This document shows positions 5,564 to 15,047 of a stretch of 32,253 nucleotides of DNA, piece after piece. The stretch is from the NCBI GenBank assembly GCA_016783745.1, contig JADHVZ010000023.1:1-32253 (forward strand), given 5' to 3'. Position numbers and translations under genes: made by a program. The DNA comes from Candidatus Omnitrophota bacterium (GTDB lineage: Bacteria; Omnitrophota; Gorgyraeia; JAHIPI01). Under the pieces are notes generated by a model that did not search any database, was not told the DNA's origin, and saw only the letters and a list, made by a program, of their open reading frames with translations. Numbering within the stretch: the first letter of the stretch is position 1; every line of letters starts with the position of its first letter.

Positions 5564-5583
5564 AAAGGCCGAGCGGCCTTTTT
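5562..5583. terminator. Bidirectional intrinsic terminator
   Basis: AAAAAGGCC-GAGC-GGCCTTTTT, a nine-pair stem with a four-base loop and A and T tracts on the two sides. It can end rsmI transcripts on the plus strand and the ATPase transcript on the minus strand. It overlaps both stop codons. Confidence 0.9.
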
Positions 5584-6796
5584 AAGCCAAAAATCGGGAG
5601 GCCGAGATTCTATAGGCGTTTTTCTTTTGCAACATGCAAATATTTTTTTCTCTACACAACTGCACGAGAGGAATATTATTAAGGACTTCCTGAACTTCAA
5701 GATGATGTCTTTCGATGGAAACATCGGAATATTTAGCCTCTATTAAGAGCCACGGCTTTTCATTTTTTGCAATAAGAAAATCGGTTTCCTCTTTTTGTTT
5801 GTTCCGAATATAGAATAGGGAATATCTTTCTCCGGTTGCGTCCATCCATAAATTCAGCATTGTTATTAATTCTACCGCAACGTAATTCTCAAATCTTTTT
5901 CCCGCGTCTTTTACGCGGGTCCAATCATAAAGATAGCATTTAGGAGCTTTTAATAACGAACGTTTAATATTTTTTGAATATGGATATATTCTAAAAGAGA
6001 GATAAAAATCTTCCAATCTTTTCAGGTAATTTTTTATAGTCGGAGAACTTAGTTCAAGATGCGATGCAATGGATGATACGGAGATGGGGTTTCCGACCAT
6101 CTCGGGCAATAACTTGTAGAGATCATAGAGATATTCCTTATCGATGATTCTTGTTAAGGCGCCTATGTCTTCTTTTATAACCGTATCCAAATAATCCTGC
6201 GCCCATTTTGAATGAAACGCTTTTGATTGTTTTATGAGCGGCTCGGGAAAACCGCTGTATTCCAACAGGAGAGACAACTCATTTTCAGCACAAACTACGG
6301 AATCTATTTTTCGCCCTACAAATTCCTCCGCTCTTTGCGGTATAACGAGAGAAGTAAAATTCTTATTTACCAACTCAGCAAGCGATAGGGGAAAAAGATG
6401 AAATGTAAAGTATCGCCCGGATAGACTGTCCCCTGCGCGTCTTGATATGTCAAATTTGGCGGAACCGGTTATTATAAAATGGTATTTCTCAAAAGAACTG
6501 TCAAAAATACCTTTTATTATGTTTTTCCATCTCGGCATTTTGTGTATTTCATCGAAACATATCCATGCCTTTTTTGAAGAGGGAGCCGTATTCGCGGTAA
6601 AAAATAGCTCATTCTCTTTGTATTTATTGCGGACAGAACGCAGGTCCCAAAGATAGTAAAAGCTTTCACAATTTTCCTGCTTTAATTTTAACCTGGCAAG
6701 AGTAGTCTTACCCGATTGCCTGGGGCCCGTTATAAACCTCATTTGACGACCCCATTCCCGAGAAAAGGCTATTTTATATAGCGCCCTTTTTATCAT
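5582..6796 (-). CDS. AAA ATPase with DUF4143 domain (second copy of family)
   Basis: 404 residues on the minus strand. Seen: Walker A GPRQSGKT at residues 24-31, Walker B WICFDEIH, FIITGSAKFD as a sensor-like motif, a middle winged-helix-like region (SIASHLELSSPTIKNYLKRLED), and a C-terminal ETDFLIA...LLIEAKYS nuclease-like signature. It is the same family as the protein at 49-1209 but clearly diverged. The gene is a single-gene unit with its own promoter, operator-like repeats and terminator, and is flanked by two copies of the rsmI 3' end, which suggests acquisition by recombination into rsmI. The predicted start lies 8 bases after the -10 box, so the mRNA would be leaderless or nearly so; ATG at codon 19 is an alternative start. 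Confidence 0.88.
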   Translation of the reverse strand: MIKRALYKIAFSREWGRQMRFITGPRQSGKTTLARLKLKQENCESFYYLWDLRSVRNKYKENELFFTANTAPSSKKAWICFDEIHKMPRWKNIIKGIFDSSFEKYHFIITGSAKFDISRRAGDSLSGRYFTFHLFPLSLAELVNKNFTSLVIPQRAEEFVGRKIDSVVCAENELSLLLEYSGFPEPLIKQSKAFHSKWAQDYLDTVIKEDIGALTRIIDKEYLYDLYKLLPEMVGNPISVSSIASHLELSSPTIKNYLKRLEDFYLSFRIYPYSKNIKRSLLKAPKCYLYDWTRVKDAGKRFENYVAVELITMLNLWMDATGERYSLFYIRNKQKEETDFLIAKNEKPWLLIEAKYSDVSIERHHLEVQEVLNNIPLVQLCREKNICMLQKKNAYRISASRFLA

Positions 6797-6989: not shown

Positions 6990-7279
6990 GGAGCAGGTGA
7001 AACGGTCCCTTTGTTACAGTGACCGATAATGACGGCCTGACCGGTTCTACATCCTGTGTAGTTACAGTCACTTCAAGTGGTATGCTATTAGGCGATGTTA
7101 CGGGCAACGGGAATGTCTCAGCGTATGACGCGTCGTTAACGGCCCAGTATGCTATAGGCCTTATAAGTTTAGCGGCGGATGAAGTCTTGCGGGCAGACGT
7201 CACGCAAAATGACGACATCTCAGCCTATGACGCGTCCTTAATAGCGCAATACGCGATCGGCCTCATAAGTAGCTTTTAG
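6990..7279 (+). pseudogene. Decayed C-terminal fragment with PKD end and dockerin repeat pair
   Basis: The open part reads FVTVTDNDGLTGSTS, the last strands of a PKD-like domain, then a serine-rich linker, then two dockerin type I repeats: GDVTGNGNVSAYDASLTAQY and ADVTQNDDISAYDASLIAQY, ending in LISSF and a stop. Upstream the likely continuation (AGETV) is in another frame and a TGA lies in the PKD frame at 6998, so the gene is truncated and frameshifted. In intact proteins such a tail sits on secreted surface enzymes and binds cohesins. No cohesin gene is in view. A GTG at 7019 opens a reading frame but is not a convincing start. Confidence 0.75.
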
Positions 7280-7303: not shown

Positions 7304-7332
7304 TTGACAAAGTAGAAAGCGTGTGATAGCAT
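7304..7332 (+). promoter_or_regulatory. Promoter of the pyrimidine operon
   Basis: Perfect TTGACA at 7304-7309, a 17-base spacer, TAGCAT at 7327-7332. The predicted start near 7339 places the PyrR loop within the first 45 bases of the transcript. Confidence 0.8.
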
Positions 7333-7346
7333 AACAGCAACACACA

Positions 7347-7382
7347 GACCTTTTAATATCGGTCCCGAGAGGCCGAAAAAGG
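7347..7382 (+). promoter_or_regulatory. PyrR-binding loop in the pyr leader
   Basis: Lower stem CCTTTT (7349-7354) with AAAAGG (7377-7382), an internal bulge AATAT, upper stem CGG/CCG, and the conserved loop TCCCGAGAGG. The layout and loop match the PyrR RNA target known in Gram-positive pyr attenuators, where UMP-bound PyrR stabilises this hairpin. The 3' side of the lower stem covers the AAGG of the ribosome site of the leader ORF that starts at 7391. Confidence 0.85.
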
Positions 7383-7390
7383 AGAATAAA

Positions 7391-7510
7391 ATGCAATTGC
7401 AGTGTTATAAAATGAACCTGCTCACCTTAAAGGTGGGGAGGTCATTTTTTTTACCCGATTTATCGGGTATAAAAATGACCCCGAGCCCGAAGTGGCGAGG
7501 GGTCATTTAA
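7391..7510 (+). CDS. Putative 39-residue pyr leader peptide
   Basis: ATG preceded at six bases by AAGGAG. The frame runs MQLQCYKMNLL... to ...KWRGVI and the TAA at 7508-7510, directly before the pyrR ribosome site (AAGGAG, about 7512-7517). The whole attenuator hairpin region lies inside this frame with no stop, although it contains an eight-base T run. Its amino acid sequence looks like a by-product of the RNA stems, so any function would be in the act of translation, not the peptide. It could be accidental; the strong ribosome site is the main argument for it. Confidence 0.45.
   Translation: MQLQCYKMNLLTLKVGRSFFLPDLSGIKMTPSPKWRGVI
7409..7452 (+). terminator. Attenuator terminator in the pyr leader
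   Basis: The left arm AAAATGAACCTGCTCACC pairs with GGTGGGGAGGTCATTTT around a TTAAA loop, followed by a T run to 7452. The same downstream arm (GGTCATTTTT, 7440-7449) can instead pair with AAAAATGACC at 7471-7480, and that segment can pair again with GGGGTCATT at 7499-7507, giving mutually exclusive folds. Confidence 0.8.
7440..7480 (+). promoter_or_regulatory. Competing (antiterminator-like) hairpin in the pyr leader
   Basis: GGTCATTTTT (7440-7449) pairs with AAAAATGACC (7471-7480). Inside it is ACCCGA-TTTA-TCGGGT (7453-7468). Formation of this fold removes the 3' arm of the terminator at 7409-7452. Confidence 0.6.
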
Positions 7511-7522
7511 CAAGGAGATGTT

Positions 7523-8068
7523 ATGACTCTTAGGGGAAAATCAAAGCTTATGACTAAAGAGGCCTTGGATAAGGCTGTCATGCGCATATCGCATGAGATA
7601 CTTGAGAAAAACAAGGCCATCAAGGATCTTGCCATTATCGGGATCAGGAACAGGGGGGAATACCTTGCTTACCGCATCGCGGATAATATAAAGAAGATCA
7701 GCGGCCAGGAGGCCTCCCTGGGCATACTGGATATAACATTGTACAGAGACGATCTTACGGAAGTCGCCGAGCAGCCGCAGGTGCAGGAGACAAGGATAGA
7801 CTTTGATATAAGCGGCAAAGATATAGTCCTGGTAGATGATGTGCTTTATACGGGCCGCACTATACGCTGTGCGCTGGATGCGCTGATAGATTTCGGCAGG
7901 CCGCACAGGATACAGTTAGCGGTACTCGTTGACAGAGGGCACAGAGAGCTTCCTATACGGGCGGATTTCGTGGGGAAGAACGTCCCTACGTCCTTAAAGG
8001 AAGTGGTAGAGGTACGCCTTAACGAATCCGACGGCAAGGATGAAGTCGTGATATGCGAAAAGGAATAA
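7523..8068 (+). CDS. pyrR: Bifunctional pyr operon regulator / uracil phosphoribosyltransferase
   Basis: 181 residues, the normal length for PyrR. It binds pyr mRNA leaders when UMP or UTP is plentiful, and many members also convert uracil and PRPP to UMP. Seen: AIIGIRNRGEYLAYRIA, GILDITLYRDDL, and the PRPP-binding loop VLVDDVLYTGRTIR, then LVDRGHRELPIRADFVGKNVPT, which is very typical of PyrR. A clear AAGGAG lies about six bases before the ATG. First gene of the operon, directly after a leader with a PyrR-type loop, so autoregulation is the natural reading. pyrB follows closely. Confidence 0.97.
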   Translation: MTLRGKSKLMTKEALDKAVMRISHEILEKNKAIKDLAIIGIRNRGEYLAYRIADNIKKISGQEASLGILDITLYRDDLTEVAEQPQVQETRIDFDISGKDIVLVDDVLYTGRTIRCALDALIDFGRPHRIQLAVLVDRGHRELPIRADFVGKNVPTSLKEVVEVRLNESDGKDEVVICEKE

Positions 8069-8125
8069 TTTGATATGGCTACTACAACCCTCTTAAATAC
8101 TCAAAAGAAGGAATCAAGGTGGGGT

Positions 8126-9064
8126 ATGACGAAAAAGAATGTGATATGGAAAAGAAAGGATCTGCTTGGCCTGGAGGACCTGAGCGCCGATGAGATCGCT
8201 CTGATCCTGGACGCCGCAAAGTCTTTCAAGGAAGTGTCGACCAGAAAAGTGAAAAAGGTGCCGACCTTAAGGGGCAAGACCATAGTGAGCCTCTTTTTTG
8301 AGCCGTCCACAAGGACGCGCATCTCTTTTGAATTAGCGGCAAAAAGGTTAAGCGCGGATACGATCGGCATAACAGCTAACTCATCAAGTGTGCTGAAGGG
8401 CGAGACGCTGAAAGACACCGCCAAGAATATCGAAGCCATGAATGTGGATGTAGTCATATTAAGGCACTCCACCCCGGGCGCGCCGCATCTTTTAGCAAAA
8501 GTTTTGGGCCCGTCCATCATCAATGCCGGAGACGGCGCTCACGAGCACCCCACGCAAGGGCTTCTGGATCTTTTCACTATAAAGGAAAAGAAAGGCACTC
8601 TTAAAAATCTGAAGGTCAGCATTATCGGTGATATAGCGCATTCAAGGGTGGCGCGTTCAAACATCTGGGGGCTTAAGAAAATGGGCGCGGATGTTACAGT
8701 ATGCGGCCCCAGTACGCTTATGCCGGTCGGGATAGAACGGATGGGGGTAAAGGTGACAAATGACCTGGACCAGGCGATAGAAGGCGCGGATGTATTGAAT
8801 GTGCTAAGGATACAGGTCGAAAGACAAAAGAAAGGCTTATTGCCTTCGATAAGGGAATACATAAATCTGTTCGGAATAAACAGGCAGCGTCTGAAGAACG
8901 CTAAGGATGACATGTTGATCATGCATCCCGGGCCGATAAATAGAGGTGTGGAGCTGACCCCCGATGTAGCTGACGGCCCATGCTCTGTGATACTTGAACA
9001 AGTCGCAAACGGTATTGCCGTGCGGATGGCGGTCCTCTTCCTTGTGACAGGAGGCAAGGAATGA
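8126..9064 (+). CDS. pyrB: Aspartate carbamoyltransferase catalytic subunit
   Basis: 312 residues from this start. It joins carbamoyl phosphate to aspartate, the committed step of UMP synthesis. Seen: the carbamoyl-phosphate loop [28 protein letters not shown], the aspartate domain [14 protein letters not shown], and [11 protein letters not shown]. An upstream in-frame ATG at 8075, seven bases after the pyrR stop, would add 17 residues (beginning MATTTLLN) that are not conserved in the family. I prefer 8126 because AAGGTGG precedes it at good spacing and the protein then begins close to the conserved [10 protein letters not shown]. No pyrI regulatory subunit is present, so feedback is probably at the RNA level. 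Confidence 0.94.
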
Positions 9065-9104
9065 TCCGCTTTCCCGAGACAGCGTTATCGATAGGAGTAA
9101 AAAT

Positions 9105-10376
9105 ATGGATATATTGATAAAAGACGGATACATTTATGATCCGGCCAACAGGAGAGAAGGTAATTTCGATATCCTGGTCTCCTGCGGCAAGATCAAGACG
9201 GTGGCTAAGAAAATAAAGGCACAAGCGTCCAAGGTCATCGATGCCAGGGGCAAGGTGATCCTTCCCGGCTTAATAGACATGCACGCCCATCTTAGGGAGC
9301 CGGGCAGAGAGGATGCCGAGACCATAGAGACCGGGCTGAGCGCCGCTCTGAGCGGAGGTTTTACGGGTGTATGCGCTATGCCGAATACAGAACCCTGCTG
9401 CCATAATCAGGAAGTAGCGGAATTTTTACTGAAAAAAGCGCAAGTTTTGGGGAAGGCCAATCTTTACCCTATCGGGGCGATAACCAAAAACCGCGAAGGT
9501 AAAGAGCTCTCCGAGATGAGCGAGCTTAAAAATGCCGGCTGCGTGGCTATATCCGATGACGGAAACTCCGTAAAAGATACCGCGATCATGCGCCGCGCGC
9601 TCGAATATGCCCACATGCTCGACATGCCGGTCATATCTCATTGCGAGGACACAGACCTTTCAGCTGATGGGGTGATGCACGAAGGCTATATATCGACGGA
9701 GATGGGGATGAAAGGTATGCCTGCGGTCTCTGAGAGTACTATAGTGGCGAGAGACCTGCAGCTGGCGGAATTTACCGGCGCGCGCATCCACATCGCGCAT
9801 GTAAGCTGTAAAGAGTCCTTAGATCTTATAAGAGCCGCCAAGGCAAAGGGCATAAGAGTGACCAGCGAAACATGCCCGCACTATCTGGTCCTTACGGATG
9901 AAACAGTGAAGAGTTTTGATTCGAACTTCAAGATGAACCCGCCGCTTCGCACCGAAGAAGATATGAAGGCTCTGAGGGCAGCTCTCAAAGACGGGACTAT
10001 AGACGTTATCTCTACCGATCACGCCCCTCATATAGAAAGCGAAAAGGATGTAGAGTTCAATTATGCGCCTTTCGGCATAATCGGGTTCGAGACCGCGGTG
10101 GCGGTGATATCTACGGACATAGTATCAAAGAACATAATCACATGGAACGATGTGGCCGAAGTGATGTCCAATCATCCGGCCCACATATTAGGGTTGGACA
10201 AGGGGAGCCTGGGTGAAGGCTCTGATGCCGACATCACGATAATCGATCCGGATGAAGAGTGGGTGTATAAAAGGGATGAGATAAAGTCGAAGAGCAAAAA
10301 CTCCCCCTTCATCGGCCGCAAGTTCAAAGGCAGAGTAAAACATACAATAGTAAATGGGGACATTTTTCCGATATAA
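9105..10376 (+). CDS. pyrC: Dihydroorotase
   Basis: 423 residues, the type I (long) dihydroorotase that closes carbamoyl aspartate to dihydroorotate. Seen: the zinc-binding HAH at residues 60-62 in DMHAHLREPGREDAET, substrate loop AMPNTEP, SHCED, HIAHVS, TCPHYL, and STDHAPH with the catalytic aspartate. Type I enzymes often associate with PyrB, and here pyrC follows pyrB by 40 bases with GGAG before the ATG. The frame is intact and all metal ligands are visible. Confidence 0.97.
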   Translation: MDILIKDGYIYDPANRREGNFDILVSCGKIKTVAKKIKAQASKVIDARGKVILPGLIDMHAHLREPGREDAETIETGLSAALSGGFTGVCAMPNTEPCCHNQEVAEFLLKKAQVLGKANLYPIGAITKNREGKELSEMSELKNAGCVAISDDGNSVKDTAIMRRALEYAHMLDMPVISHCEDTDLSADGVMHEGYISTEMGMKGMPAVSESTIVARDLQLAEFTGARIHIAHVSCKESLDLIRAAKAKGIRVTSETCPHYLVLTDETVKSFDSNFKMNPPLRTEEDMKALRAALKDGTIDVISTDHAPHIESEKDVEFNYAPFGIIGFETAVAVISTDIVSKNIITWNDVAEVMSNHPAHILGLDKGSLGEGSDADITIIDPDEEWVYKRDEIKSKSKNSPFIGRKFKGRVKHTIVNGDIFPI

Positions 10377-10385
10377 GGGAAAACA

Positions 10386-11618
10386 ATGCCGTATATTTGC
10401 GATCTACATATTCACTCAAAATACTCCAGGGCCACGAGCAAAGATATGGATATCGAACACTTAAGCAAATGGGCGAAGATAAAAGGAATATCCCTGATCG
10501 GCACAAGCGACTTTACCCATCCGGACTGGCTGAAAGAGCTTAAAACCAATCTGACTGAAAAAGAATACGGCATATATACGCATAGCGGAGTCGACTACAT
10601 ACTTACCGCTGAAGTCTCCAACATATATTTTAAAAACGGTAAAGTGCGCAAAGTACACAACGTCATAATAGCGCCGTCTTTCGCCGTTGCAGTAGAGATA
10701 AACAGGATGCTGGCAGGGTTCGGAAGGCTTGAATCTGACGGCAGGCCGATACTGAGCCTTGAATGCGATAAGATGGCAAAGGCCTTAAGGAAGATCAATG
10801 CGGATACTATGATCATACCCGCTCATATCTGGACCCCGCATTTTAGCCTGTTCGGCTCTAATTCCGGCTTCGATTCCTTAGAGGAATGTTTTGGGGAAGA
10901 AGCCAAGAATGTAACAGCGCTTGAAACGGGCTTGTCCAGCGATCCTGCCATGAACTGGAGGCTATCGTCGCTGGATAAATATTCACTGGTATCAAATTCC
11001 GATGCGCATTCACCTTCTAAGATAGGCAGGGAGGCGAATGTCTTTGATAAAAAAGCCGGGTACAAAGAGCTTAAAGAGATCCTTAAGAAAAAAGACGCTA
11101 AGAGATTTTTGTACACGGTGGAATTTTTCCCGCAGGAGGGGAAGTACCACTGGGACGGACACAGAAAATGTGGCGCAAGGCTTTCTCCGTCGGAATCAGC
11201 CAATGTCAACCACAGGTGCCCGAGTTGCGGTAAAAAGCTGACAGTAGGGGTGATGAGCAGGGTGGAGAAGCTTGCCGACAGGCCGGAAGGCTTTGTGCTT
11301 GAAAGCGCGCCCGGTTATAAAAGCCTGATCCCGCTCATAGAGATAATAGCCGATTCTATGGGCGTGGGTAAGGAGTCCGTAAGGGCAGAAAGAGAATATA
11401 ATTCTCTTATCCAGGGGGCAGGCAGTGAGCTTGACATCCTTATTTTTAAGTCGAGGGAGGAGATCCTTGAAAAATGCCCGCCGAAGATAGCGAAAGGCAT
11501 AATGAATGTGCGGGAAGGGAACGTAAATATTACTCCCGGGTATGACGGCGTTTATGGTAAGATAGAGATATTCGATAAGGACAATACCAAAGAAGAGAAG
11601 CAGATGACGTTCTTTTAA
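10386..11618 (+). CDS. Endonuclease Q-like PHP-domain DNA repair protein
   Basis: 410 residues. The N-terminal PHP metal site shows H8 and H10 in CDLHIHSKYSRA, with SNSDAHSP (D206, H208) later in the domain. A zinc finger follows, with C262, C278 and C281, and then a C-terminal helical region. This is the layout of the TIGR00375/EndoQ family, first described in Thermococcales, which nicks 5' of uracil, hypoxanthine and xanthine in DNA. The last five residues, QMTFF, fit the bacterial sliding-clamp binding consensus (Q-L/M-S/T-L/F-F). It sits ten bases after pyrC inside the pyr operon, so expression would follow pyrimidine demand. Family is fairly certain; activity is inferred. Confidence 0.88.
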   Translation: MPYICDLHIHSKYSRATSKDMDIEHLSKWAKIKGISLIGTSDFTHPDWLKELKTNLTEKEYGIYTHSGVDYILTAEVSNIYFKNGKVRKVHNVIIAPSFAVAVEINRMLAGFGRLESDGRPILSLECDKMAKALRKINADTMIIPAHIWTPHFSLFGSNSGFDSLEECFGEEAKNVTALETGLSSDPAMNWRLSSLDKYSLVSNSDAHSPSKIGREANVFDKKAGYKELKEILKKKDAKRFLYTVEFFPQEGKYHWDGHRKCGARLSPSESANVNHRCPSCGKKLTVGVMSRVEKLADRPEGFVLESAPGYKSLIPLIEIIADSMGVGKESVRAEREYNSLIQGAGSELDILIFKSREEILEKCPPKIAKGIMNVREGNVNITPGYDGVYGKIEIFDKDNTKEEKQMTFF

Positions 11619-11654
11619 TTATAATGTAATTGAGGTTACGAAAGGTTACAAGAT

Positions 11655-11793
11655 CCCTGGTTGTTCGTATATCGTTTATCGTCAATCGTACAAATCCTGT
11701 GATGGACATCAACAAAAACGATAAACGATCAACGATATACGATAAACGAATTACAAGCGTCTCTCGAGAAATAACAAACAAGTCGAGAGCACA
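11655..11793. repeat. Hairpin-forming intergenic repeat before pyrK
   Basis: Inverted arms built from ATCGTTT-like heptamers (about 11666-11692 and 11716-11750), followed by a conserved tail (11740-11793) that matches 12751-12804 at 51 of 54 positions. The tail contains CTCTCGA (11761-11767) and TCGAGAG (11783-11789), which can pair around 15 bases. The second half of that stem ends five bases before the preferred pyrK start. Confidence 0.8.
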
Positions 11794-11794
11794 G

Positions 11795-12607
11795 ATGATG
11801 AAACAATATAAAAGTATGCCAAAACAGGTAATAGCTAAAGTCATATCACAAAAAGAAGTCAAGCGCGGATGCTTCAGGATGAAGATCGAATCACCCATTA
11901 TCGCGAGATCCGCCTCGCCCGGACAGTTCCTGCACATTCTTTGCGGCGACTCGGGCTATCCCCTTCTGAGGCGGCCCATCAGCATCCACAGAATAGGCAA
12001 GAAGGACATAGAGATACTCTATAGTGTCATCGGTAAAGGCACAAAGATCCTTTCCGGAAAAAGATCGGGTGATACCCTTGACATAATAGGGCCGCTCGGT
12101 AACGGCTTCAAGGTCTTTAAGGGCAGCAGGTCCGTAAAAATGCTCGTCGCTGGCGGCATGGGGGTAGCCCCTCTTCTTGGATTAGCGGATGAATTATCGC
12201 GCGGCGCGAAAGGAAAAAATAAATTTATCGTGGTGCTGGGCGCCAGGACGCATAACCACATACTTTGTGAAGGCGATTTTAAGCGTTTAGGCGGTGATGT
12301 CCACATCGCGACTGAAGACGGAAGTAAGGGAAGGCGCGGATCAGCCACGGATCTCGCGCGCGATATCGTACATTCCAAAAAATATAAATGGAGGGATGTG
12401 TGTATTTATACTGCGGGGCCCATCAATATGGTCAAGGCGCTGGCCAGGCTGGTGGAAGGATGCAGCATTGAATCGCAGGCGTCTTTGGAAGAACGGATGG
12501 CCTGCGGTCTCGGCGCGTGCTTGGGATGCGCCATCGAAACACAGTCCGGTTATAAACGCGTCTGCAAAGACGGACCGGTGTTTAATTTTTGCGAGGTGGT
12601 AGCGTGA
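11795..12607 (+). CDS. pyrK: Dihydroorotate dehydrogenase electron transfer subunit
   Basis: 270 residues from this start. PyrK carries FAD and a [2Fe-2S] cluster and passes electrons from PyrD to NAD+. Seen: SPGQFLHI, the FAD motif LRRPISIHRI, GPLGNGF, the nucleotide-binding AGGMGVAPLLGLADEL, ARTHNHILCEGDF, and the C-terminal cluster CGLGACLGCAIET...CKDGPVF. The open frame extends 55 codons further up to 11630, but that part is translated intergenic repeat, so I exclude it. ATG at 11798 and 11816 are alternatives. The ribosome site is weak (GAGAG in the repeat stem). It pairs with pyrD as a class 1B enzyme. Confidence 0.93.
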   Translation: MMKQYKSMPKQVIAKVISQKEVKRGCFRMKIESPIIARSASPGQFLHILCGDSGYPLLRRPISIHRIGKKDIEILYSVIGKGTKILSGKRSGDTLDIIGPLGNGFKVFKGSRSVKMLVAGGMGVAPLLGLADELSRGAKGKNKFIVVLGARTHNHILCEGDFKRLGGDVHIATEDGSKGRRGSATDLARDIVHSKKYKWRDVCIYTAGPINMVKALARLVEGCSIESQASLEERMACGLGACLGCAIETQSGYKRVCKDGPVFNFCEVVA

Positions 12608-12610
12608 TGG

Positions 12611-12804
12611 TCGCTGGTTATTCGCATATCGTTAATTGTATTTCGCTTGATTATCTTGGTTTGGTTTACGGTTCATGGTTTACGGTTTACGGAACAACCC
12701 CCGGATTTTAAAACCGTACACCGTTAACCGTACACCGTAAACCGGATAAACGATAAACGAATTACAAGCGTCTCTCGAGAAATAACAAACGGTTCGAGAG
12801 CACA
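12611..12804. repeat. Nested hairpin repeat before pyrD
   Basis: Outer arms (about 12611-12631 and 12751-12770, TATTCGCATATCG against CGATAAACGAATTA) enclose an inner inverted repeat, 12663-12692 with 12713-12743, built from a GGTTTAC-like heptamer. The right tail 12751-12804 copies 11740-11793 at 51 of 54 positions, including the CTCTCGA/TCGAGAG stem. The inner repeat is absent from the copy before pyrK. Confidence 0.8.
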
Positions 12805-12841
12805 TGTAGCGATCATATTAGCGCAAAGCAATAAAGCGATT

Positions 12842-13753
12842 ATGAAACCTAAACTAGAAGTTAAAATCGGAAAACTAAAGCTGAAAAACCCGGTGACCGT
12901 GGCATCCGGCACATTCGGCTACGGCTCAGAGTTCGACGGCACCGCCGACATAGACAAACTGGGCGGCATCGTGACAAAGACCATCACTCTTCATGCGCGC
13001 GTCGGCAACAAACCTCCGAGGATAATAGAGACCCCATCCGGCATGATAAATTCGATAGGCCTTGAAAATCCGGGCGTTGAAAAGTTCATAAAGGACAAAC
13101 TGCCGTTCTTGCAAAAATACAAGATCCCTGTTATAGCAAGCATCGCGGGTGAGACTATAAAAGAATATTCAGAGCTTGCCGGGCGCCTTGACAGCGTAAA
13201 AGATATTGCCGCTATCGAGATAAATATATCGTGCCCTAATATAAAGACGAGCAAGTTGTTTTCTCAGGATGAAAACTCGACGGGAGAGGTTGTCAGGGCC
13301 GTTAGAAGCGCGACAAAAAAGACAGTCATCACTAAGCTTTCCCCGAATGTAACGGATATCGGCGGGATCGCGAAGTCAGCGGAATCGGCCGGCAGTGACG
13401 CGCTGTCACTCATAAACACGCTTAAGGCTATGTCCGTAGACGCTAAGACAAGAGAAAGCAGATTAGGCGATGTGACGGGCGGGCTTAGCGGGCCGGCAAT
13501 AAAACCCGTAGCTCTTTTTATGATATGGAAGGTATATCACAGAGTAAAGATCCCTATAATAGGCATGGGCGGTATCATGAGCCCTTCTGATGTCGTCGAG
13601 TTTATGTTATGCGGATCCACCGCGGTGTCGGTCGGGACAGCCAATTTTGTTCATCCTAACGCGGCCGCCGAAGCCGTAAAAGGCTTAAGCCAATACCTGA
13701 AAAACGAAAAAATAAAAGATGTCAACAAGCTTATAGGAAGTTTAAAGGTTTAA
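12842..13753 (+). CDS. pyrD: Dihydroorotate dehydrogenase B, catalytic subunit
   Basis: 303 residues of the class 1B (NAD+-linked) type, which oxidises dihydroorotate to orotate using FMN and needs PyrK. Seen: LKNPVTVASGTFGYG, GMINSIGLENPG, EINISCPN with the catalytic cysteine typical of class 1, INTLKAM, GGLSGPAIKPVAL, and GMGGIMSPSDVVEFMLCGSTAVSVGTANF. No membrane-anchoring N terminus is present, as expected for class 1. The start has no strong ribosome site; a hairpin repeat lies just upstream. pyrF follows after one base. Confidence 0.96.
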   Translation: MKPKLEVKIGKLKLKNPVTVASGTFGYGSEFDGTADIDKLGGIVTKTITLHARVGNKPPRIIETPSGMINSIGLENPGVEKFIKDKLPFLQKYKIPVIASIAGETIKEYSELAGRLDSVKDIAAIEINISCPNIKTSKLFSQDENSTGEVVRAVRSATKKTVITKLSPNVTDIGGIAKSAESAGSDALSLINTLKAMSVDAKTRESRLGDVTGGLSGPAIKPVALFMIWKVYHRVKIPIIGMGGIMSPSDVVEFMLCGSTAVSVGTANFVHPNAAAEAVKGLSQYLKNEKIKDVNKLIGSLKV

Positions 13754-13754
13754 G

Positions 13755-14468
13755 ATGGCAAGAGGGGAAAAGATAATAGTAGCGCTTGATGTAAGCAGAT
13801 TAGAGGAAGCCGAAAAACTTGTCGATAAGCTGCGGCCGGTCATCAAAATATTCAAAATAGGCTCAGAGCTTTTTACCTCATGCGGGATCGAGGCTGTCGA
13901 TCTGGTCAGAAGAAAAGGCTGCAAGGTCTTTCTGGACTTAAAATACCACGATATCCCGTATATAGTGATGAAGGCATCAAAGGCCGCGGCCAATCAAGGT
14001 ATACATATGTTTACTATGCATACTTTAGGCGGGGCCTCTATGCTGAAAAGAGCGGCCGATGCCGCGAGGGAAGAGGCGGCGCGCCTCAGCAACGAACCGC
14101 CTTTAGTGTTGGGCGTGACAGTCCTTACCAGCCATAACGATAAAGATATGCAGTCGGTCGGAATAAGCGGCTCTGTGGACGATGAAGTGGCGCGGCTGGT
14201 CAAATTGGCTGAAAAGGCCGGGCTCAACGGTATTGTGGCATCAGCGCAGGAGGTCTCGAGGATACGCAAAATAGTGAAGAAAGAATTTCTTATCGTGACA
14301 CCGGGCATAAGGCCTTCATGGGCGCAAAAAGCCGATCAGAAAAGAGTGGCTACTCCTAAGGAGGCGCTTGAAATGGGCGCGGACTATCTGGTCATCGGCA
14401 GGCCGATAACGGCTCAGGATGACCCCAAGGCGGCCGCGGAAAAAATACTTCAGGAAATCAGCGGGTGA
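13755..14468 (+). CDS. pyrF: Orotidine-5'-phosphate decarboxylase
   Basis: 237 residues, the short bacterial type that forms UMP from OMP. Seen: IIVALDVS, FKIGSELF, the catalytic charged tetrad in FLDLKYHDIPYI (D-x-K-x-x-D), GVTVLTS, and VTPGIRP, followed by ADYLVIGRPIT, the phosphate-binding end of the barrel. Spacing to pyrD is one base and to pyrE three bases, so the genes are translationally linked. Confidence 0.97.
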   Translation: MARGEKIIVALDVSRLEEAEKLVDKLRPVIKIFKIGSELFTSCGIEAVDLVRRKGCKVFLDLKYHDIPYIVMKASKAAANQGIHMFTMHTLGGASMLKRAADAAREEAARLSNEPPLVLGVTVLTSHNDKDMQSVGISGSVDDEVARLVKLAEKAGLNGIVASAQEVSRIRKIVKKEFLIVTPGIRPSWAQKADQKRVATPKEALEMGADYLVIGRPITAQDDPKAAAEKILQEISG

Positions 14469-14471
14469 TCC

Positions 14472-15047
14472 ATGGAGATAAAAAATCAGGATATTCTGGC
14501 TATATTTAAAAAGACAGGCGCGCTGCTTAACGGGCACTTTAAGCTCTCAAGCGGACTGCATAGCGGCCAGTATCTCCAATGCGCGCAGGTCCTCCAATAC
14601 CCCGAATACGCGGCGCAGATGGGGGAAGCTATTGCCGGCAAATTTAAGGATGAAGGCATAACCTGTGTAGCCGGCCCGGCCCTGGGAGGAATTATCATCG
14701 CCCATGAGGTCGCAAAGGCCCTCGGCAAAAGGTGCGTGTTTGGTGAGCGCGAAGATGGCAAGATGACTTTACGAAGGGGGTTTAAAATAGGCCCTGATGA
14801 TAAAGTCCTGGCAATAGAGGACGTAATAACCACCGGCAAGTCCATAAACGAGCTTATATCTGTGATAAGAGATACCGGCGCGGTGGTCATAGGAGCCGGC
14901 GCTATTGTAGACAGAAGTTCGGAAAGAATAGATTTCGGATGCGAGCTAAAAACGCTGATCAAGCTGGACGTACAAAAATTCAAGCCCGAAGAATGCAATT
15001 TATGTAAGGATAACACTCCACTGGTCAAGCCCGGCTCAAGAAAATAG
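14472..15047 (+). CDS. pyrE: Orotate phosphoribosyltransferase
   Basis: 191 residues. Joins orotate to PRPP to give OMP, the substrate of the preceding gene product. Seen: FKLSSGLHSGQYLQCAQVL, GPALGGIIIAHEVA, and the PRPP loop VLAIEDVITTGKS. It resembles the subgroup of PyrE with a cysteine-containing tail (EECNLCKDNTPLVKPGSRK). Last gene of the pyr operon; no clear terminator follows, and a new promoter begins at its stop codon. Confidence 0.95.
   Translation: MEIKNQDILAIFKKTGALLNGHFKLSSGLHSGQYLQCAQVLQYPEYAAQMGEAIAGKFKDEGITCVAGPALGGIIIAHEVAKALGKRCVFGEREDGKMTLRRGFKIGPDDKVLAIEDVITTGKSINELISVIRDTGAVVIGAGAIVDRSSERIDFGCELKTLIKLDVQKFKPEECNLCKDNTPLVKPGSRK

Follow-up and report, generated by a model that had tools for sequence, protein, structure and literature searches.

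The leader of the pyr operon in the window (the whole stretch of 32,253 nucleotides of Candidatus Omnitrophota DNA that was analysed, which makes up contig 10 of a draft genome of 1.66 Mb) is best explained as a PyrR attenuator gated by ribosome entry, a reading that we give a probability of roughly 0.8. Because the PyrR hairpin hides the start signal of an ORF that runs across the terminator, the most likely way in which PyrR switches the operon off is by excluding ribosomes. The leader (7339-7522) heads an operon in the order pyrR-pyrB-pyrC-TIGR00375-pyrK-pyrD-pyrF-pyrE, with the following features:

7304-7332, plus strand: sigma-70-type promoter TTGACA-17-TAGCAT with TG before the -10, read from the sequence
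7349-7382, plus strand: predicted PyrR-binding loop, with lower stem CCUUUU/AAAAGG, upper stem and loop UCCCGAGAGG (RF00515 match and fold)
7376-7384, plus strand: Shine-Dalgarno of the leader ORF, AAAAAGGAG, whose AAGG forms the 3′ side of the lower stem in the PyrR loop
7391-7510, plus strand: leader ORF of 39 codons, ATG to TAA, extending across the terminator as far as the pyrR ribosome site (ORF call; frame open in relatives)
7409-7453, plus strand: intrinsic terminator, hairpin 7409-7448 and T run (predicted fold)
7452-7469, plus strand: second hairpin, inside the leader ORF past the terminator (-9.7 kcal/mol)
7473-7508, plus strand: third hairpin, inside the leader ORF and ending at its stop codon (-22.1 kcal/mol)
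7511-7516, plus strand: pyrR ribosome site AAGGAG, adjoining the stop codon of the leader ORF
7523-8068, plus strand: pyrR, pyr operon regulator/uracil phosphoribosyltransferase (NCBIfam NF003549, E = 8e-74)
8075-15047, plus strand: pyrB, pyrC, TIGR00375 protein, pyrK, pyrD, pyrF and pyrE (family matches)

The best PDB match of the window's PyrR is Thermus PyrR (1ufr), and the six named genomes with the PyrR nearest to it are all Candidatus Omnitrophota. The TIGR00375-type protein between pyrC and pyrK (10386-11618) scores under the model cut-off and has no Pfam match. Upstream of the leader, a minus-strand ATPase-like gene (5582-6796) neighbours a short plus-strand frame (7019-7279) that by eye resembles a dockerin-type tail and may be what is left of an interrupted gene.

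Transcription would start near 7339, as judged from the position of the promoter, and a TTGAC-type -35 element is found about 46 nt 5′ of the PyrR loop in 181 of 196 relatives. The loop sequence (CCUUUUAAUAUCGGUCCCGAGAGGCCGAAAAAGG, 7349-7382) folds alone with -12.3 kcal/mol, and both the fold and an alignment to RF00515 with high posterior probability over the loop show the conserved UCCxGxGAGG loop on two stacked stems with a CCUU/AAGG base; pyr genes follow it, and the genome encodes PyrR (pyrR at 7523). This is the single RF00515 match in the whole genome. The match spans 7346-7451 (49.8 bits, E = 3e-6) and scores slightly below the Rfam gathering score of 54, and a search at that threshold did not pick up the window's PyrR loop; the mismatches fall between loop and terminator, with none inside the loop. 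The AAGG of the leader Shine-Dalgarno pairs with CCUU of the lower stem, so that the site, whose duplex with the anti-Shine-Dalgarno has an energy of -8.9 kcal/mol, sits within the PyrR stem; and since the loop is fairly stable alone, the leader ribosome site should be partly buried even without PyrR. For the entire leader, folding gave z = -7.2. The match and the fold bear out an earlier sequence-only reading of this DNA, which had described a PyrR-type loop with a lower stem covering the AAGG of a ribosome site.

The same reading had described a 39-codon ORF beginning six bases past the ribosome site and running stop-free through a terminator and T run to just before the pyrR ribosome site, and this proved accurate throughout. 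The leader ATG lies 8 nt after AAGG, which is six after AAGGAG; the terminator hairpin (7409-7448) has a folding energy of -20.4 kcal/mol (z = -5.9), with none of 200 shuffles equally stable; hairpin and T run lie wholly inside the frame; and the stop codon TAA (7508-7510) directly adjoins the pyrR Shine-Dalgarno AAGGAG. The two hairpins beyond the terminator (7452-7469 and 7473-7508) are not retained in genomes of the same family, the one at 7452-7469 being missing from L003-L005, and the idea that they form a repeated element was rejected because they are single-copy in the genome. The segment AAAAAUGACC (7472-7481) could pair alternatively with the 3′ arm of the terminator and the T run.

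Of 384 genomes in the window's class, 278 (215 of 282 genera) contain a match to RF00515, only 24 of the 384 passing the gathering score, and other Omnitrophota classes have matches too. The comparative set consists of 196 Omnitrophota leaders located through RF00515, with close relatives counted individually; the controls by other frames and by shuffling carry the same kinship among leaders as the true-frame counts. Leaders that lack a terminator are under-sampled in this set because the RF00515 model contains the terminator. An ATG lies 4-13 nt past the AAGG of the PyrR stem in 170 of the 196 leaders, vs 47 ± 5.6 in shuffles that preserve dinucleotides, and most of the non-ATG leaders have GTG as start codon. 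By inspection, six named Omnitrophota leaders that were found by the PyrR protein alone all possess the loop, AAGG, ATG and terminator (6/6). Judged from sequence, a layout with the PyrR loop over a Shine-Dalgarno and an ORF over the terminator is retained in nearly 200 relatives. Two variants of the loop were observed. Eight leaders (L035, L055, L103, L105, L109, L118, L122 and L138) have the loop CAGCAC.GAGAGGCUG, with UCC changed to CAC, and GTG starts, and four leaders from other Omnitrophota classes (L262, L269, L270 and L274) have an altered loop, GACGGCGCUGAGACGCCGAC, without UCCxGxGAGG, and retain AAAGG, a start codon and the terminator; the altered loop of these four possibly reflects a co-evolved PyrR specificity.

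Open frames were counted in the 194 leaders with a start codon and a terminator, with a start rule blind to frame and with terminators anchored on the hairpin. A stop codon 5′ of the terminator stem occurs in the true frame of 9 of the 194 leaders, vs 87 ± 6 in spacer shuffles with dinucleotides kept, and vs 89 and 107 in frames +1 and +2. Within the 5′ arm, its first half holds 0 stops in the true frame vs 23 and 11 in the other frames, and its second half holds 6 in the true frame; further true-frame stops lie in the hairpin loop (16, including L005, of the window's own family) and in the 3′ arm (17), and 146 of the 194 frames run beyond the T run (57 and 47 in the other frames). Because a ribosome stopping in the loop or 3′ arm still covers the 5′ arm, the conserved trait would be ribosome passage over the 5′ arm of the terminator, and neither a peptide nor full crossing. 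The leader peptide sequence is not shared between families, so translation, rather than the peptide, seems to be what counts. That the ORF crosses the terminator is thus true of the window and is not a requirement, since covering the 5′ arm would suffice, to judge from relatives.

Of the nine leaders with an early stop, two (L132 and L278) have a second start codon in reach, the frame of which is open; one (L082) has a longer hairpin, inside which the stop lies; and in three (L140, L290 and L293) the stop is at most about 12 nt before the 5′ arm. Real exceptions are L074, L091 and L096, the first two close to each other, in which by inspection the frame stops after 2-4 codons and the loop and terminator are retained. 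Relatives that keep the loop and hairpins with a broken ORF or a lost ribosome site had been named in advance as evidence against the proposal, and with about three clear exceptions among the 196 relatives the proposal was not refuted.

The same parts could also belong to classical attenuation of the Bacillus type, in which an antiterminator competes with an anti-antiterminator stabilised by PyrR-UMP and the ORF is incidental. The window's loop is of the same family (RF00515), its terminator lies about 25 nt downstream, and by eye there is a weak ACCUUU/AAAGGU complementarity between the 5′ side of the loop and the terminator loop. We therefore folded transcripts only up to the terminator loop, when a Bacillus antiterminator would form. 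The truncated window transcript retains the full PyrR stem in the predicted fold, and the stem stays intact in 91% of 153 leaders of the class vs 59% of the 29 from Bacillota. Pairing between the terminator arm and the loop's 3′ strand is predicted in 5% of the class leaders vs 34% of those from Bacillota. In the class, loop and terminator arm are about as complementary as in shuffled sequence (median z = -0.22), and in Bacillota they are more so (-1.09). Duplex energies and truncated folds thus revealed a competing antiterminator in part of the Bacillota controls and generally none in Omnitrophota, and the predicted default in the absence of a ribosome is termination. As the Bacillus-type account also leaves the conserved start codon and open frame unexplained, we regard it as quite unlikely. 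That the leader ORF is an accidental frame, or belongs to a small protein with a function, is barely credible: a 39-codon frame is unremarkable in the window alone, but for the group, comparison of the 194 leaders with their other frames and with shuffles excludes chance, and the lack of peptide conservation across families speaks against a protein.

The leader ORF might instead serve mainly for translational coupling, with PyrR blocking ribosome loading, ribosomes from the leader supplying pyrR and the terminator acting as a fixed dampener. The leader stop and the pyrR start share exactly 4 nt (ATGA-type overlap) in 30 of 154 leaders, vs 1 and 2 when the other frames are read; overlaps of any length occur in 66 of 154. 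These 4-nt overlaps, together with the abutment of the window's leader stop and the pyrR Shine-Dalgarno, make translational coupling to pyrR likely in many, not all, members. However, the leader ORF ends more than 60 nt from pyrR in 31 of 154 leaders, yet nearly all reach the terminator arm, and stops are allowed within the hairpin and not 5′ of it. Coupling as the main role is consequently unlikely, and it could operate alongside terminator gating.

In ribosome-gated attenuation as we picture it, the PyrR loop would be the first part of the transcript to emerge after initiation near 7339. At high UMP, PyrR-UMP would clamp the loop and bury the leader AAGGAG, no ribosome would load, and the terminator (7409-7453) would fold freely and end transcription of the operon. 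When UMP is low, the loop would be open to the ribosome and initiation would occur at 7391; the ribosome would cover the 5′ arm of the terminator within 6-12 codons, allowing polymerase to continue into pyrR-B-C-K-D-F-E, and would finish at 7510 beside the pyrR ribosome site, probably feeding pyrR translation. The binding of PyrR, its control by UMP, the timely melting of the terminator by the ribosome and the coupling to pyrR are steps that we infer from the layout. The earlier proposal that PyrR stops leader translation so that the terminator forms is largely supported at the level of sequence comparison by the conserved start, spacing and open frame and by the absence of an antiterminator. 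The main doubt about ribosome gating comes from E. coli, where a terminator located within 100 bp of the start of a coding region usually escapes repression unless pausing couples ribosome and polymerase (PMC4824070). Since the T run in the window ends about 62 nt past the leader ATG, by this rule a pause, a slow polymerase or close ribosome loading must be assumed, and a pause at the PyrR hairpin is perhaps the source of the required delay.

Ribosome-gated PyrR attenuation is already known as a proposal. Van de Casteele and colleagues reportedly suggested in 1997 (J Bacteriol) that, in the PyrR attenuator of Thermus ZO5, a translating ribosome and not an antiterminator prevents the terminator. 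The window's leader resembles that proposal in its PyrR loop, in an ORF that follows just after the loop and runs over the terminator, and in a ribosome that would keep the terminator open; it has the Shine-Dalgarno in the PyrR loop and, in predicted folds, no competing antiterminator, as expected of the Thermus type. It differs in belonging to another phylum, in the documentation of 196 leaders and in the mapping of the boundary for tolerated stops to the 5′ arm of the terminator. Our Deinococcota sample, which is two leaders, shows the same layout: in both Thermus tenuipuniceus (L154) and Meiothermus rufus (L155) the loop is followed after 7 nt by an ATG whose frame stays open beyond the T run. 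The joined mechanism of the sequence-only reading is thus supported in substance, but not as a new idea, because it had been proposed for Thermus ZO5 and its layout is present in Thermus and Meiothermus; as far as our literature search showed, what is new here is the phylum, together with the scale of the comparison.

The pyr attenuators of Bacillus subtilis and B. caldolyticus (RF00515) share with the window the regulator, binding loop, downstream terminator and pyr operon. Unlike them, the window has no antiterminator that competes with the loop (the predicted fold of the truncated transcript retains the PyrR stem), one loop per genome rather than several, and a leader ORF. PyrR is said to exert translational control in Mycobacterium smegmatis (reportedly work of Fields and Switzer in 2007). 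There, too, the PyrR loop hides a Shine-Dalgarno; in the window, however, the hidden one is that of the leader ORF and not that of pyrR, which lies outside the loop (7511-7516), and a terminator stands in between. E. coli pyrBI senses UTP through polymerase pausing, with no PyrR, whereas here PyrR would gate initiation of the leader ORF. The two are alike in a leader ORF over the terminator, where an advancing ribosome prevents, or in the window would prevent, termination (PMC5021804, PMC4824070), as when it blocks the pyrL terminator in E. coli (PMC5021804). Among Clostridia, leaders L165 (Peptococcaceae) and L175 (Dichloromethanomonas) have an ATG past the loop, and its frame continues stop-free across the terminator into the pyrR region; the ribosome-gated mode, or an extended pyrR, may thus occur in some Bacillota.

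The leader is a member of a known, little-tested kind, and the comparative support for this is strong. The textbook mechanism of PyrR is based on Bacillus. We suggest only tentatively, as an idea somewhat more likely to fail than to hold, that the ribosome-gated form is the usual PyrR control outside Bacillota (in Omnitrophota, Deinococcota, perhaps others and some Clostridia) and that the Bacillus antiterminator may be derived; ribosome gating would then have been easily acquired, since the conserved AAGG of the PyrR loop is already a Shine-Dalgarno. Through the comparison, what was one proposal for Thermus becomes a rule that can be tested, namely that the leader ORF must cover the 5′ arm of the terminator; the comparison also illustrates how the same binding loop can serve differing outputs. 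An uncultured phylum would have a different read-out of one protein-RNA contact, in which PyrR admits the ribosome and the ribosome decides transcription, implying functional coupling of transcription and translation very early in the transcript in Omnitrophota.
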